Source of the DNA: Acinetobacter lwoffii | GTDB lineage: Bacteria > Pseudomonadota > Gammaproteobacteria > Pseudomonadales > Moraxellaceae | Direction of reading: 5' to 3' | Assembly (NCBI RefSeq): GCF_019048525.1 | Contig: NZ_CP077369.1 | Coordinates: 2,542,001-2,606,000 of the forward strand | Length of the DNA: 64,000 bases | In this document: one piece after another, positions 19,922-51,881 of the stretch | How positions within the stretch are numbered: position 1 is the stretch's first letter | How the letters are laid out: each line of letters begins with the position of its first letter | Program-made: the position numbers and the translations under genes | Notes under the pieces: generated by a model | Seen by the model: the letters and a program-made list of their open reading frames with translations, nothing else | The model's database searches: none | What the model was told of the DNA's origin: nothing

Positions 19922-20009
19922 TTAGGAATTCTTTAAATTAATCATTAATTCTGACTTATATTTCATTTAGTTATAGAATGTGCCAATTTATAACTTAACT
20001 ACTTTTTTC

Positions 20010-21919
20010 ATGCAATTTAGATACGATATAAACGGACTACGAGCAATCGCTGTTCTTGCTGTTGTCATTTTTCACTTTAATCCACAATGGTTACCAGGTG
20101 GATTTGCTGGGGTTGATGTTTTCTTTGTCATTTCTGGTTTCTTAATGACATCGATTATTTTTGGTGGTGTAGAAAAGAATATTTTTAAGTTATTCAAATT
20201 TTACAATGCTCGAGCAAATCGAATTATCCCTGTATTAGCTGCTATGTCAGCTGTTTTACTTGTATTTGGTTGGTTCTATTTAACCCCAATTGATTATCGT
20301 GATCTAGGACGTCAAGTTGAGAAAAGCTCCTTATTTATCTCAAATCTTTTATTTGCAAAAGGTGGTGGTTATTTCGATACAGCAGAACATACAAAATGGC
20401 TATTACACACATGGTCTTTATCTGTTGAATGGCAATTCTATATCTTCTTTCCTATTTTCATTGTTATTCTAAAACAATATTTAAGTTTCAAAAACCTAAA
20501 ACGTGTTGTTATAGGATTATTTCTAGCGAGTTTTATTTACTGTATTTATACAACTTACAAAGACAGCAAAACTGCTTATTTCTTACTGACAAGCCGAGCT
20601 TGGGAAATGTTACTCGGTGGATTAGCTTTCCTATATCCCTGGTCACTTAAAAATAAGATCACAAAAATTACAGTTCAATCCTTAGGTATTGTTCTTATTG
20701 TTACGTCTTATTTCTTTATGTCAAAAGATACATTGTGGCCAGGTTATATGGCACTAATACCTGTGTTTGGTGCATATTTAATTATTATAAGTAATTATCA
20801 AAATAATTTTGTTATCAATAATCCTATTTTTAGCTATATCGGTAAATGGTCTTACTCCATTTATGTATGGCACTGGCCTTTAGTAGTTTTAGGATTCTAC
20901 TTTACATTTAAAAACTGGTGGATGTATGGCATTCCACTTTCTCTCTTACTTGGATTCTTAAGTTATCAATTTATTGAAAAGATCAATTTCCCAAGATATT
21001 CGTCATGGAAAGAGATATATAAAGTTAAACCGTTTTATATATTTTTAGTCATTTTAGTCTGTGGTTATACTATAAAAAAACTGATGGAATGGAATTTCGT
21101 GTTTCAGAAAAAATTACCACCATTTTAAATGAGGCTAACAACGATTTTCCTCAAAGATGCGAGTCCGTATTCGCTTCTGAAAAATTTGAAACATGCATAA
21201 TTGGAAATAAAGACAATATTAAAGCTATTATTCTTGGGGATAGTCATGCAGATGCTATTGCATCATCTATAACTAGTATTTTGAATTTAAGTAAAGATGG
21301 AGTCATATATGCTGCTAGATCTGGCTGCCCTTATATCTTAAATGCAAGCTTCAATGAAGATATTTCATTTTGTACTAAAATAAATGAAGATCGTCATCAA
21401 TATTTGAAGCAACATAAAAATACTCCTATTTTCATTGTAAATAGATACTTAGAAAGAATGGAAGGCGAAAATAATATTGATAGAGCGAATTCACAAATCA
21501 TTTATTTTAGTGATAAAAAAAGCACAAAGAAGGAAAAATACCTTGAATTTCAAGATAATTTTGAAAAATCAATTTGTGATATCTCTCCAAATTCACCAGT
21601 CTATATAGTTTCTACAATTCCAGAAATGGGGATTAATATTCCTCCTTTAATGGCTAAACAAATTATGAAATATGGAAAATTCGAAGAAAATGGAATTTCC
21701 TATACAAAATATAAAGAACGATCTGACAGAATTAACAATATATTAGCATCCACTGCAGAACAATGTAGGGCTACATTCCTAGATGTTTCAAAAGTATTAT
21801 GCAATAAAAACGTATGTATTTCAGAATATAGAGGACGACCAATTTATCGTGATGGGGATCATTTAAGTGAGTATGGTAATAAACTTTTAAAGCCTATATT
21901 TAAGGGAATATTTGAGTAA
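20010..21919 (+). pseudogene. OafA-type acyltransferase with C-terminal SGNH domain, frameshifted
   Basis: Two frames together form the usual two-part O-acyltransferase that acetylates surface polysaccharide. The first (20010-21128, start MQFRYDINGLRAIAVLAVV) is the integral membrane acyltransferase-3 domain, ten or eleven helices, with catalytic-type H in VIFHF and R in the YNARANRI region. The second (frame of 21089-21919) is a periplasmic SGNH domain with GDSHA (nucleophile serine) and DGDHLS (Asp/His). They are offset by one base at a run of seven A (21074-21080); eight A would fuse them exactly between the last helix and the SGNH domain. The gene is far more A+T-rich than its neighbours, indicating transfer. 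It may still give two working pieces. Confidence 0.8.
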
Positions 21920-21978: not shown

Positions 21979-22006
21979 ATTTAACATAAAATCTCTTAAC
22001 TGTCTG
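21979..22006 (-). promoter_or_regulatory. Degenerate dif-like site with an intact XerD arm
   Basis: On the minus strand TTATGTTAAAT (21989-21979) is identical to the E. coli and pdif-consensus XerD arm. A six-base centre (GAGATT) and CAGACAGTTAA follow at the XerC position; the latter is a poor XerC arm and coincides with the broken end of pilU'. Orientation is opposite to the site at 19894, as in pdif-flanked modules. A single 11-base arm can occur by chance, so this is tentative. Confidence 0.4.
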
Positions 22007-22661
22007 TATCATGAATTTCACCGATCACAATCACATCGGGTGCCTGCCGCCTAGTATTGATAAGCGCGTTATGCCAGGAAATACAATCCACCCCGATCTC
22101 TCGCTGGGTAATCATCGATTTTTTATGCTGATAGACATATTCCACCGGATCTTCAATAGTAATAATATGTCCTTCGGTATGGGTATTACGATAATCAATC
22201 ATGGCAACCAGTGTCGTAGATTTTCCAACACCCGTTGCCCCCACCACCAAGATCAGTCCACGTTTTTCCATAATGACCTGCTGCAATGAACTCGGCAAGC
22301 CTAACTGCTGAAAGCTCGGAATGTCTGTGGTAATGGCCCGAATGACCATACCGACATTGTGCTGTTGCTGGAATACATTCACCCGAAAACGCGAAACACC
22401 CGGCACGCTAATGCCAAAATTACATTCCATGACCGATTCAAATTCCTGAATTTGTCGCTCGTTCATTAAGGCATACGCAAATAAGCGGGTCTTATCCGGC
22501 GTGAGTTTCTGCTGACCAAAGGGCTTCATCAGGCCCTGTCGTTTAATACTGGGTGGGAAATCTGCAGTAATAAAAAGGTCTGAACCATTATATTCAACCA
22601 TCTTGGTCAGCATATGGTGCATAAATTTACGTGCTTCATCGAGCAATTCGGTTGTATACAT
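21996..22661 (-). pseudogene. Second pilU copy, 3'-truncated after the Walker B region
   Basis: A 221-codon frame that by eye matches residues 1-220 of the complete pilU at about three quarters of positions, with Walker A GATGVGKST and the Asp box present. It stops at GEIHDTDS where the intact protein continues DTETMEHAIAFAETGH; the His box and the C-terminal half are missing, so it cannot form a normal ATPase. The stop codon falls in sequence unrelated to pilU that contains a XerD-like half site. It is on the same strand as pilU. The divergence shows an old paralogue rather than a recent copy. Confidence 0.82.
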
Positions 22662-22907: not shown

Positions 22908-23957
22908 TTAAGCACTACGCTTCAAACCTTCGAGCCGTAGTGAGTCAGTCATATTTAACAATAGTTGTTCGGTTTTTGTCCAGCCCAGACATCCATCAGT
23001 TACAGACTGACCATAAGTCATTTGCTCAGAAATTTTCTGGTTGCCGTCAACAAGATGACTTTCTAGCATTACGCCACGAACATTGGTCTGTAAGCGTTCT
23101 GCCACGATCTGCTCCAATACTTCAGGCTGCAGCATCGGATTTTTTGAGCTATTGCCATGATTACAGTCAATCACCAATGCCGGTAAGTCGATCTGATGTT
23201 TGGCCCGGATTTTCTCAATTTCTGACAATTGGTAATTTGGTCCGCTATTCGAGCCACGTAAAATCAAATGTGCTTTAGGATTACCTTGCGAGTGTAAAAT
23301 GCATGGTAAACCAGACTGGCTCATCCCCAGGAATTGATGAGGATGAGAGGCAGACTGAATGGCATCTAATGCAATCTGGATCGAACCGTCAGTACCATTT
23401 TTGAAACCGATGCTGTACGGCATATGGCTGGAAATTTCGCGATGAATTTGCGATTCGCTGGTACGTGCGCCAATCGCACCCCAAGCTAATAAGTCATCGA
23501 AATAAGCAGTTGCCATCGGGCTAAGAATTTCAGAGGCAATGGGCAGACCCATTTCAATGATTTTTAGGTATAAGTCACGAGATTTTTCCAAGCCCAATTG
23601 CATATTGGATGAACCATCCAGATTTGGATCGTAAAGGAAACCTTTCCAGCCTACGGTAGTCCGCGGTTTTTCGATATAAGCACGCATCACCAGGAAAATC
23701 TGATCAGATAGCTGTGACTGAAGCTGTTTTAATTTTTCTGCATAGTCTAGCGCCGAAGCTTCATCATGAATGGAACATGGGCCGGTGACCACCATCAAAC
23801 GATGATCCTTGCCTTCTAATATATTTTGAATGATTTGACGATGTTCAGCGACTTGGCTGGCCAATTGCGGAGACAGTGGCAATTGCTGCTTAAGCTGCTG
23901 AGGTAAAATTAAAATGCTTTCAGCATGATGTTGTTGTGATGTATTTGGGGTATTCAT
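22908..23957 (-). CDS. aroG: DAHP synthase, class I AroF/G type (attenuator-controlled copy)
   Basis: First step of the shikimate pathway: phosphoenolpyruvate plus erythrose-4-phosphate gives DAHP. 349 residues, normal for the AroFGH type. Motifs include GPCSIHD (PEP site), EKPRTTVGWKG, IGARTSESQ, GFKNGTDG and DCNHGNS (metal histidine). A second, clearly different DAHP synthase lies at 50.8 kb. This copy is preceded by a long leader with an attenuator whose short ORF is rich in Tyr and Phe, which suggests that this isoenzyme responds to Tyr/Phe supply. AGGA is nine bases before the ATG. Confidence 0.92.
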   Translation of the reverse strand: MNTPNTSQQHHAESILILPQQLKQQLPLSPQLASQVAEHRQIIQNILEGKDHRLMVVTGPCSIHDEASALDYAEKLKQLQSQLSDQIFLVMRAYIEKPRTTVGWKGFLYDPNLDGSSNMQLGLEKSRDLYLKIIEMGLPIASEILSPMATAYFDDLLAWGAIGARTSESQIHREISSHMPYSIGFKNGTDGSIQIALDAIQSASHPHQFLGMSQSGLPCILHSQGNPKAHLILRGSNSGPNYQLSEIEKIRAKHQIDLPALVIDCNHGNSSKNPMLQPEVLEQIVAERLQTNVRGVMLESHLVDGNQKISEQMTYGQSVTDGCLGWTKTEQLLLNMTDSLRLEGLKRSA

Positions 23958-23970
23958 GACTTTAATCCTG

Positions 23971-23987
23971 GGACTGGCAATCAGTCC
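23971..23987 (-). promoter_or_regulatory. Stem-loop immediately before the aroG ribosome site
   Basis: On the minus strand GGACTG/CAGTCC forms a 6-bp stem with a five-base loop, ending one base before the AGGA of aroG. It has no T-run. Its 5' arm overlaps CTGATT, which could pair instead with AGTCAG inside the second leader ORF. Role in translation is a guess. Confidence 0.4.
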
Positions 23988-23993
23988 AAACTT

Positions 23994-24098
23994 TTATTTG
24001 AGCGTTATGGGTCTAATCGAAAGTGTTGTAAGTGTCATTAGCTGACTAAAATAAGACCAATAAAAGTTGTTAAAGTATGAATAGTTAAAGTTTGTCAT
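23994..24098 (-). CDS. Second aromatic-rich leader ORF upstream of aroG
   Basis: A 34-codon ORF, too short for normal gene calling, with GGAG seven bases before its ATG. Residues 4-17 (FNYSYFNNFYWSYF) hold nine aromatic residues (four Phe, four Tyr, one Trp). It ends 36 bases before the aroG start. It lies downstream of the attenuator terminator, so it would be made only in read-through transcripts. The composition is that of a leader peptide sensing charged tRNA-Tyr and tRNA-Phe, but no T-run terminator follows; a translational switch on the stem before aroG is possible. Confidence 0.6.
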   Translation of the reverse strand: MTNFNYSYFNNFYWSYFSQLMTLTTLSIRPITLK

Positions 24099-24133: not shown

Positions 24134-24245
24134 TAAAAAAACCTGATCAGGGTTGCCGATCAGGTATAAACTGGTGGGCAACCTTTTCATTGCCCAAACG
24201 CATTCAGGCAATTAGCTAAACTGCCAGAAATAAAAATATGCGTTT
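24134..24245 (-). promoter_or_regulatory. Attenuator of aroG: alternative hairpins and terminator
   Basis: Four segments in minus-strand order: 1, AAACGCAT (24245-24238, inside leader ORF 1); 2, ATGCGTTT (24203-24196) running on to GGTTGCC (24183-24177); 3, ACCTGATCGGCAACC (24165-24151); 4, GATCAGGT (24148-24141) followed by seven T. Segments 1 and 2 pair (8 bp), 3 and 4 make the terminator (8 bp), and GGTTGCC of 2 pairs with GGCAACC of 3, which would prevent the terminator. This is the layout of classic ribosome-mediated amino acid attenuators. Confidence 0.75.
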
Positions 24246-24268
24246 GAAATGATAGGTTGCTTTAACAT
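24212..24268 (-). CDS. First aromatic-rich leader peptide of aroG
   Basis: An 18-codon ORF, MLKQPIISNAYFYFWQFS, starting about 30 bases after the predicted transcription start. It has Tyr-Phe-Tyr-Phe-Trp-Gln-Phe at residues 11-17. These codons begin in hairpin segment 1, so a ribosome stalled there for lack of Tyr or Phe would free segment 2 to pair with 3 and let transcription continue. The ribosome site is weak (AAAGA). The role is inferred from position and composition, by analogy with leader peptides such as PheL. Confidence 0.7.
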   Translation of the reverse strand: MLKQPIISNAYFYFWQFS

Positions 24269-24301
24269 GTTATGTCTTTCATAAAATGTGATTCTGAAAT
24301 T

Positions 24302-24330
24302 AAAATACGCGCTCTGTGATCATTTGACAA
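24302..24330 (-). promoter_or_regulatory. Promoter of the aroG leader
   Basis: Minus-strand TTGTCA (24330-24325) and TATTTT (24307-24302) with exactly 17 bases between. Predicted start is near 24295, giving a leader of about 340 bases. Confidence 0.7.
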
Positions 24331-50768: not shown

Positions 50769-51881
50769 ATGATCGAACCAGTGACGGCAATGAATACACA
50801 ACAGTCAAATCCTATTTCAGCATCAGATATTGATGACGTGAATATCCACAGCATGATTCCTCTTGTAACCCCTGCTGAGCTTAAAGCAGAGTTACCGTTG
50901 ACTGAAACTGCTTATCAAACCGTACTGCATGGTCGTGAAACGATTCGTAAAATTCTGGATGGTGAAGACAAACGCCTGTTCGTTGTAATTGGCCCTTGTT
51001 CTATTCACGATCCAGAGGCGGCGCATGAATATGCTGAGCGCTTAAAAGTGCTGAGCGAAAAAGTTAAAGACAGCTTATATATCGTGATGCGGGTTTATTT
51101 TGAAAAACCACGTACTACCGTAGGTTGGAAAGGTCTGATCAATGACCCAGACATGAATGATTCATTCAATATTGAAAAAGGTCTGCGTATCGGTCGCAAG
51201 CTATTACTTGAACTGAATGAAATGGGCTTGCCATGTGCCACTGAAGCACTTGATCCAAACTCGCCACAGTATTACCAAGACCTGATTTCATGGTCAGCAA
51301 TTGGTGCACGTACCACAGAAAGCCAGACCCATCGTGAAATGTCTTCTGGTCTTTCTTCACCAGTCGGCTTTAAAAATGGTACTGATGGCGGTTTAACGGT
51401 CGCGACCAATGCGATGCAATCTGTGAAACATGGTCACAGCTTCCTCGGTCTGAATGATCAGGGTCAGGTGGCTGTGATTCGCACTTCAGGCAATCCTTAT
51501 GCTCACGTGGTACTGCGTGGCGGTAATGGCAAACCGAACTACGATGCAGGCTCGGTTGCCGATGCAGAAGCTGCTCTAGTCAAGGCCAAAGTCAGCACCA
51601 AGATCATGATTGATGCCAGCCACGCCAACTCTAACAAAGACCCGTACCTGCAACCACTTGTACTTAAAAACATTTCCGAACAAATTCTTGATGGAAACAA
51701 GTCAATTGTTGGTATTATGGTAGAAAGTCATCTTAAGGGTGGTCGTCAGGACATTCCGGCGAACCTGAATGATATGGAATACGGTCAATCCGTTACGGAT
51801 GGCTGTATCGACTGGGAAACGACTGAAAAAGTTTTACTCGACATGCATGAGGCATTGAAAGACATTTTACCTAATCGTTAA
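50769..51881 (+). CDS. DAHP synthase, second isoenzyme
   Basis: 370 residues, AroFGH class I. Motifs GPCSIHD, EKPRTTVGWKG, GARTTESQ, GFKNGTDGG and DASHANS are present. Starts at ATG 50769, or 50790 (MNTQQSN), the latter common in the genus. It differs from the aroG copy at 23 kb: it is longer at the N-terminus, and no leader ORF or terminator precedes it. The N-terminal extension could carry a different feedback site. Followed 64 bases later by a PTP-like gene. Confidence 0.9.
   Translation: MIEPVTAMNTQQSNPISASDIDDVNIHSMIPLVTPAELKAELPLTETAYQTVLHGRETIRKILDGEDKRLFVVIGPCSIHDPEAAHEYAERLKVLSEKVKDSLYIVMRVYFEKPRTTVGWKGLINDPDMNDSFNIEKGLRIGRKLLLELNEMGLPCATEALDPNSPQYYQDLISWSAIGARTTESQTHREMSSGLSSPVGFKNGTDGGLTVATNAMQSVKHGHSFLGLNDQGQVAVIRTSGNPYAHVVLRGGNGKPNYDAGSVADAEAALVKAKVSTKIMIDASHANSNKDPYLQPLVLKNISEQILDGNKSIVGIMVESHLKGGRQDIPANLNDMEYGQSVTDGCIDWETTEKVLLDMHEALKDILPNR

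Follow-up and report, generated by a model that had tools for sequence, protein, structure and literature searches.

A likely two-stage tyrosine/phenylalanine leader upstream of aroG in Acinetobacter, with a probable counterpart in the P15 RNA of pseudomonads

Introduction

Aromatic amino-acid synthesis begins with DAHP synthase, an enzyme targeted in metabolic engineering. In the pheL/pheA, trpL and his attenuators of Escherichia coli, control codons overlap the first segments of a set of mutually exclusive pairings that includes an intrinsic terminator. Translational attenuation of the erm type with two leader peptides relies on tandem leader ORFs, and there a drug-stalled ribosome is the signal. 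The P15 RNA, said to have been discovered in the work of Livny (2006), presumably lies near a DAHP synthetase gene, and we know of no function for it. Rfam lists it (RF00627) as a gene, described as 'Pseudomonas sRNA', and not as a leader.

Attenuators have also been associated with DAHP synthase genes. As the accessible text of PMC11802643 and PMC4046766 describes it, the aroR-aroF attenuator of Corynebacterium glutamicum (Neshat et al. 2014) has a leader peptide with Phe-Tyr-Phe upstream of a DAHP synthase gene, and transcription of aroF rises under Phe limitation. In Vibrio, an attenuator was predicted before the class I DAHP synthase gene of aroA(I alpha)-tyrA, according to predictions by Merino that are cited in PMC1173090.

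Here, we describe the leader of aroG in a 64,000-nucleotide stretch of Acinetobacter lwoffii DNA (contig NZ_CP077369.1, positions 2,542,001 to 2,606,000), which is called the window and in which all coordinates are given. Like aroR-aroF, this locus has a leader peptide with aromatic codons upstream of a DAHP synthase gene; unlike it, aroR-aroF is actinobacterial, and the accessible text of PMC11802643 and PMC4046766 mentions neither a second ORF nor a hairpin. The Vibrio case is likewise an attenuator 5' of a class I DAHP synthase gene, but it is a prediction alone. With the E. coli attenuators the Acinetobacter leader shares control codons that overlap the first segments, mutually exclusive segments and an intrinsic terminator. 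Its six-segment pairing chain resembles that of the his attenuator, whereas the downstream gene is a DAHP synthase gene, an extra pairing arm (a:D) lies in the first codons of the leader ORF, and a second leader ORF follows the terminator. Tandem leader ORFs before a start site are shared with the erm two-leader systems, in which, by contrast, the signal is a drug-induced stall and no intrinsic terminator separates the leaders. An earlier note on this DNA knew of no described attenuator of aroG in Acinetobacter, and we also found none in the open literature (Merino's predictions lay outside the scope of this search), where C. glutamicum offers a DAHP synthase precedent as far as its accessible text goes. 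Nor did the open literature yield a tandem Tyr/Phe leader or any published role of P15.

Results

The gene preceded by the leader and its Shine-Dalgarno sequence are located as follows.

22908..23957, minus strand: aroG, class I DAHP synthase isoenzyme of 349 aa
23966..23969, minus strand: Shine-Dalgarno AGGA of aroG, read in the sequence

The enzyme is a class I DAHP synthase: it scores 407 bits with NCBIfam TIGR00034 and 484 bits with PRK12755, each over cut-off, an assignment at the level of the class that leaves the feedback type (AroG, AroF or AroH) aside. Its protein is 99% identical to those of the named A. lwoffii loci. A second DAHP synthase gene of the window (50847-51860, plus strand) encodes a protein 48% identical to AroG, which clusters with copies from five other Moraxellaceae in a tree of 29 rows (L059 was omitted because of an in-frame stop). 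Upstream of this second gene, no Tyr/Phe leader was seen by eye. The only match in an Rfam scan of the window at gathering level was a glycine riboswitch elsewhere (RF00504, 55178-55265, minus strand, 66.8 bits, E 1e-11), with none at the aroG leader.

Several features of the surroundings were noted in passing. Downstream of aroG, an ORF at 21996-22661 (minus strand) resembles, by eye, a shortened PilT/PilU-type ATPase, and adjoining it an apparent acyltransferase gene at 19980-21919 (plus strand) is split in two overlapping ORFs. Several A. lwoffii contigs stop soon 3' of aroG, as at a variable junction. The omitted L059 (Acinetobacter sp. B51(2017)) has its in-frame TAA at codon 192 of aroG, and stops inside the DAHP synthase match were also present in G008, G056, G120 and G143, among the matches listed.

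The first part of the leader comprises a candidate promoter, a short ORF and a chain of pairing segments.

24302..24330, minus strand: sigma-70-like promoter, TTGTCA-17-TATTTT, from a consensus scan
24212..24268, minus strand: leader ORF1, MLKQPIISNAYFYFWQFS followed by a stop
24254..24260, minus strand: segment a, GCAACCT, in ORF1 codons 3-6, pairing with D in the MFE fold
24238..24248, minus strand: segment A, TTCAAACGCAT, immediately 5' of the Tyr/Phe codons, pairing with B
24199..24211, minus strand: segment B, TTGCCTGAATGCG, right behind the ORF1 stop, pairing with A or C
24189..24198, minus strand: segment C, TTTGGGCAAT, pairing with B or D
24176..24183, minus strand: segment D, GGTTGCCC, pairing with a, C or E
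24135..24165, minus strand: intrinsic terminator E:F, ACCTGATCGG-CAACC-CTGATCAGGT, with a T run

The promoter with a 17-base spacer proposed in the earlier note was recovered at 24330-24302. Since the consensus scan gave 5 promoter-like sites per 600 bases where 2.5 were expected, this match is weak by itself; by eye, a TTGTCAAA...GCGTATTTTA pattern recurs 5' of ORF1 in most of the Acinetobacter loci inspected. The 18-codon Tyr/Phe ORF that the note had pointed out is present as ORF1 (24268-24212), in which 6 of 18 residues are F, Y or W (33%). Such a Tyr/Phe/Trp density is unusual: among the 184 ORFs of 17-40 aa that follow a strong Shine-Dalgarno within 400 kb of this genome, two reached 29% and one 38%. 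This set is not a matched control, ORF1 itself lacking a strong Shine-Dalgarno. Indeed, none was found 5' of ORF1 in any of 67 loci, the window having GAAAG at best. Nearest-neighbour codon differences in ORF1 (56 synonymous to 102 nonsynonymous) indicate no strong purifying selection.

The leader folds with -52.2 kcal/mol (z -5.7; 0 of 200 shuffles equally low) and can adopt two mutually exclusive folds, namely a:D around A:B together with E:F, which is the MFE structure, or B:C together with D:E. The helix C:D provides a third means of holding D, with a ribosome at the ORF1 stop over B. The three pairings named in the earlier note, AAACGCAT/ATGCGTTT, GGTTGCC/GGCAACC and ACCTGATC/GATCAGGT with seven T, all occur in the window, and the chain is longer than described there by B:C, C:D and a:D. 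The terminator stem counts 10 pairs (24165-24141) and is followed by the seven T.

Conservation of the helices was assessed in 96 loci (omitting the near-copies L003, L004, L006 and L066 and the repeats L171, L192 and L196), which gave 90 distinct rows, by counting uninterrupted helices of 5 or more pairs with G-U allowed. C:D, D:E and E:F could form in 90/90 rows, with at least 6 bp for E:F in every one, and B:C in 89/90; a:D was possible in 71 and A:B in 73. The stems are diverse in sequence: B:C occurs as 42 distinct helices and A:B as 35 (examples are AACGC:GCGTT and ACTTC:GAAGT), and the terminator appears with GATC/GATC, GATT/AATC or GAGC/GCTC. C:D and D:E give scant covariation, since the core of D is almost invariant, while the extension of a:D past this core covaries, with a mean of 2.44 pairs compared with a maximum of 2.10 over 2000 permutations (39 rows with the core, a statistic in which the kinship of rows stays). 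These counts, together with the a:D covariation, show that the mutually exclusive antiterminator and terminator have been kept in evolution. The first pairing of the earlier note, A:B, stands for the 73 rows with at least 5 bp but falls below 5 bp in the other 17, some of which pair just beyond a rough search window; A:B is thus not essential, and occupancy of B by a ribosome at the ORF1 stop could substitute for it. A previous scan with a narrow A:B pattern, which missed 43 of 96 rows, found own pairings mostly no better than swapped ones (5/46 at or below 0.1). In an exhaustive search for covarying column pairs, alignment A1 was too conserved to be informative and the top pair of alignment A2 fell in the hairpin H2 described below.

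Collectively, these data support the earlier proposal of a ribosome-mediated attenuator, for which the note had suggested folding the leader and comparing it across Acinetobacter. In the untranslated leader, or with a ribosome at the ORF1 stop, a or C would hold D, so that the E:F terminator forms. A ribosome stalled at the Tyr/Phe codons would cover A, thus allowing B:C and then D:E to form, and RNA polymerase would read through.

The distribution of the leader was examined in 72 loci of relatives, including 66 from Acinetobacter. A covariance model of this first leader, built from 60 distinct sequences, matched 169 of 175 Acinetobacter genomes; ORFs were read in the 66 named loci and in 33 further ones, the rest of the 169 genomes being represented by the model match alone. 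ORF1 and the terminator were found in 66/66 named loci, and both ORF1 and the second leader ORF, ORF2, in 33/33 further loci, some of which are from the same species. Six genomes had no leader match (G116, G128, G129, G147, G148 and G168; three are 90-91% complete and one 65%). Their best DAHP synthases have E values of 2e-84 to 6e-102, in the range of the paralogue, which gives 1e-99 in the genome that contains the window, compared with 1e-114 and 6e-115 in the weakest leader-bearing genomes. Since the leader-less genomes score at paralogue level, the leader and the isoenzyme seem to be gained or lost jointly, with a reservation for incomplete genomes. The earlier note had regarded relatives that keep aroG and lack the ORF or the pairings as evidence against its reading, and the outcome of this search favoured the attenuator.

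In 173 other Moraxellaceae genomes, the leader model gave one weak match (E 0.002) with no DAHP synthase near it, and the 34 of these genomes that were searched for the enzyme contained only copies 46-50% identical. The weakest leader matches overall (G244 and G070:C1, E 0.002) were rejected as chance, no DAHP synthase being nearby. No match of the Acinetobacter model was obtained in 194 other genomes of the order. Six loci of one clade (L164-L169, from G070, G076, G077, G084, G100 and G153) have a DAHP synthase 52-56% identical, yet their first leader is nearly unchanged.

Between the terminator and aroG, beyond the region covered by the earlier note and missed by it, a second ORF and a hairpin occupy 24098-23971.

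23994..24098, minus strand: leader ORF2, MTNFNYSYFNNFYWSYFSQLMTLTTLSIRPITLK followed by a stop
23971..23987, minus strand: hairpin H2, GGACTG-ATTGC-CAGTCC, lying 3' of the ORF2 stop and 5' of the aroG Shine-Dalgarno, from the RNAalifold consensus

ORF2 is intact in 65 of the 66 named loci. The exception, L065, is one base short relative to its aligned neighbours and therefore out of frame, by a real change or a sequencing error. ORF2 has its own Shine-Dalgarno, TTTTGGAG in the window, and a strong one precedes it in 65/67 loci. Its sequence drifts and remains Tyr/Phe-rich in every Acinetobacter clade read, for instance MNNMTYSYFSNFYWFYFCLP.. in the baumannii-calcoaceticus group, MTYQFFSSARFYQYWTLTQ.. 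in the G070 clade, MADQFNFYFIYSQF.. in L213 and MFNTTYFSAFSTPYYF.. in L216. Position 8 is Tyr in 64 and Phe in 2 of the 66 named-set sequences, with the Tyr codon alternating between TAT (34) and TAC (30), which indicates that the amino acid is held and not the base. Synonymous to nonsynonymous nearest-neighbour differences (69:127 in codons 1-19 and 18:64 in the last 8) give no sign of strong purifying selection. We consider ORF2 a likely Tyr/Phe sensor. In most species the last codons of ORF2 keep GCTCAAATAA (23994-24003, minus strand), with variable bases nearby; no pairing partner was found for this conserved end.

In H2, three of the five consensus pairs of RNAalifold show changes on both sides. 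Alternative stems such as GGACTG/CAGTCC, AGACGC/GCGTCT, GGGT/ACCC and GAGCA/TGCTC occupy the same place, and 14 distinct stems were counted among the 66 loci; a wider list holds 33, some of them A/T-rich chance stems from clades without H2. The distance from the ORF2 stop to the aroG ATG ranges from 32 to 44 nt (sd 2.8; 66 loci) when taken raw. With H2 folded out, it narrows to 15-22 nt (median 19, sd 0.9), a constancy that is partly a consequence of conserved flanks. Two loci without H2, L207 and L211, have 16 and 17 nt. In L164-L169, another Tyr/Phe-rich frame takes the place of ORF2 and extends over the start of the gene, and in L216 the ORF2 stop lies within the Shine-Dalgarno region. Since the spacing is held, the H2-less loci have 16 and 17 nt and L164-L169 show an overlap, we take it that selection keeps the ORF2 stop near the start of aroG. 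An upstream stop held near a downstream start, here at a median of 19 nt with sd 0.9, is the arrangement of termination-reinitiation.

The link to P15 was reached solely through a sub-threshold match: in a permissive Rfam scan, the window leader scored 19 bits (E 0.05-0.11) against P15, whose gathering cut-off is 70, and no P15 match at E of 0.001 or below was obtained in the window's genome. Pseudomonas massiliensis (L067), among the 72 loci the only non-Acinetobacter relative with an enzyme more than 50% identical, has P15 above cut-off (82 bits, L067:1049-1169), ending 226 nt 5' of position 1396, where the gene begins. Of 96 genomes sampled evenly across the order, 7 contained P15 (4 above cut-off), in 7/7 cases ahead of a DAHP synthase. 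Within one genus, probably Pseudomonas, P15 was present in 25/25 genomes and overlapped an ORF1 with GYWFS, after which came ORF2 and DAHP synthase; L253 has a second, sub-threshold match with no DAHP synthase near. The Pseudomonas-type ORF2, for example MNTTYYRYYRNSDWRFSSALRATQRALPRTLR, is followed by a GC-rich hairpin and AAGGA; no ORF2 was located in L226, and the one of L228 contains little Tyr or Phe. In 30/32 loci, ORF1 codons can pair with bases behind the stop through GGGTA:TACCC or a variant of it (CTGGTAT:ATACCAG in L228).

In the enzyme tree, the P15-linked and Acinetobacter enzymes form one group against the Moraxellaceae paralogues, with support of 100/99. P15 and the Acinetobacter leader thus precede DAHP synthases of the same group, and around P15 the same elements recur, namely a Tyr/Phe/Trp-rich ORF1 overlapping it, a terminator, ORF2, usually a hairpin, and the gene. 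Unlike the Acinetobacter leader, P15 is GC-rich, and the window stays at 19 bits against the cut-off of 70. As the Acinetobacter model had no match outside the window's genome in the sample of the order, the RNA has diverged past recognition by that model, with the layout kept. Because the same two-step layout stands before an orthologous DAHP synthase, P15 is probably the terminated product of an equivalent attenuator in pseudomonads.

Three further observations concern these loci. At L067 1378-1395, the Shine-Dalgarno AAGG sits in the loop of GGGCGAT-AAGG-ATCGCCC before the start, the order elsewhere being hairpin and then Shine-Dalgarno. By eye, TGGCRATTTAG is common to Acinetobacter ORF1 (W-Q-F) and Pseudomonas-type ORF2 (W-R-F), and TATTGGTTT to Pseudomonas-type ORF1 and Acinetobacter ORF2. 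An ancient duplication may link the ORF1 and ORF2 leaders.

Discussion

Ribosome-mediated transcription attenuation upstream of aroG is well supported by the presence of the leader in 169/175 Acinetobacter genomes and of the core helices in 89-90 of 90 rows. This first stage is of a kind already known, with a precedent in aroR-aroF as far as the accessible text on C. glutamicum describes it. We regard as likely the fuller reading in which ORF1 attenuates transcription, ORF2 reports the same amino acids to the translation of aroG, and P15 is the pseudomonad counterpart. Read-through RNA would expose ORF2, with H2 holding the ORF2 stop about 19 nt from the aroG start. Given this nearness, ribosome traffic over the Tyr/Phe codons of ORF2 would be expected to affect initiation at aroG; most probably, completed translation of ORF2 would repress aroG and stalling would relieve the repression. 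This way of acting and its sign, repressing aroG or feeding it, we infer from evidence that supports them in part.

Stage 1 by itself would account for a starvation response. ORF2, which drifts strongly between clades, is missing from L226 and out of frame in L065, might then have no regulatory role, as a decaying copy of a leader for instance. Such a reading seems to us decidedly unlikely, because ORF2 stays Tyr/Phe-rich despite its drift in the Acinetobacter clades read and in 25/25 genomes of the P15-bearing genus, H2 changes on both sides and the spacing to aroG is held. The effective spacing of about 19 nt would also suit ribosomes that finish ORF2 and reinitiate at aroG across H2, so that aroG translation needs ORF2; L164-L169, where ORF2 runs over the start of the gene, and L216, where its stop falls inside the Shine-Dalgarno region, fit such positive coupling as well. 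On the other hand, Tyr/Phe starvation would then lower aroG, contrary to stage 1, and aroG has a strong Shine-Dalgarno of its own (mostly AAAGGA or CAGGA, by eye), which makes this coupling rather unlikely. By eye, ORF2 seems rich in C and poor in G towards its 3' end, as might be expected if it guarded or exposed a Rho site; a role for Rho, whose simple sign would be wrong, or stabilization of the mRNA by stalled ribosomes, is highly improbable in our view.

Repression relieved by stalling could, within the two-stage reading, take an erm-like form, in which direct pairing with the Tyr/Phe codons of ORF2 would occlude the aroG start until a ribosome stalls on them; for stage 2 this is the simplest route. 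In the window's ORF2, TATTCATACTTTAA is complementary, apart from one bulge, to TTAAAGTCATGAATA at the aroG start. Across 34 lineages, a modelled stall cut the cost of opening this start by 1.67 kcal/mol on average, compared with 0.11 in codon permutations (0/30 as low), and ORF2 codons paired better with their own aroG start than with swapped ones (p at or below 0.05) in 12 of 20 lineages of the core genus. A wider swap test was less favourable, with 14 of 39 lineages at this level (median p 0.10; 12/26 core and 2/13 divergent), these being related lineages whose counts are not independent. Furthermore, simple duplexes with the starts of other genes were often equally strong, the aroG start ranking at or below the 15th percentile in 15 of 26 lineages and above the 40th in 8, a comparison that is not decisive and that took in misplaced starts for L060 and L061. 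In the core genus, modelled folding thus speaks for a repression that stalling would relieve; in the divergent clades it does not, and we hold the erm-like form as a tentative possibility. A pairing seen by eye between the ORF2 Shine-Dalgarno (TTTGGA) and the aroG site (TCCAAA) was dropped because it is lost in part of the baumannii group.

The two-stage reading can be extended to an old device of the Pseudomonadales with two tiers, in which leader 1 would decide on transcription and an independent, Tyr/Phe-sensing leader 2, kept by a hairpin at a fixed distance from the start, on translation, P15 being the terminated first tier; for this broader proposal, we see the chances as evenly balanced. 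The new parts are the tandem leader with its hairpin and the proposed identity of P15, an RNA listed merely as an sRNA, for which the analysis proposes a function and a gene that it would control. For the metabolic engineering of DAHP synthase, keeping or omitting such a leader would matter. Furthermore, two tandem sensing leaders before one gene would make it possible to test cleanly if the same aminoacyl-tRNAs are gauged twice in bacteria, in transcription and then in translation.
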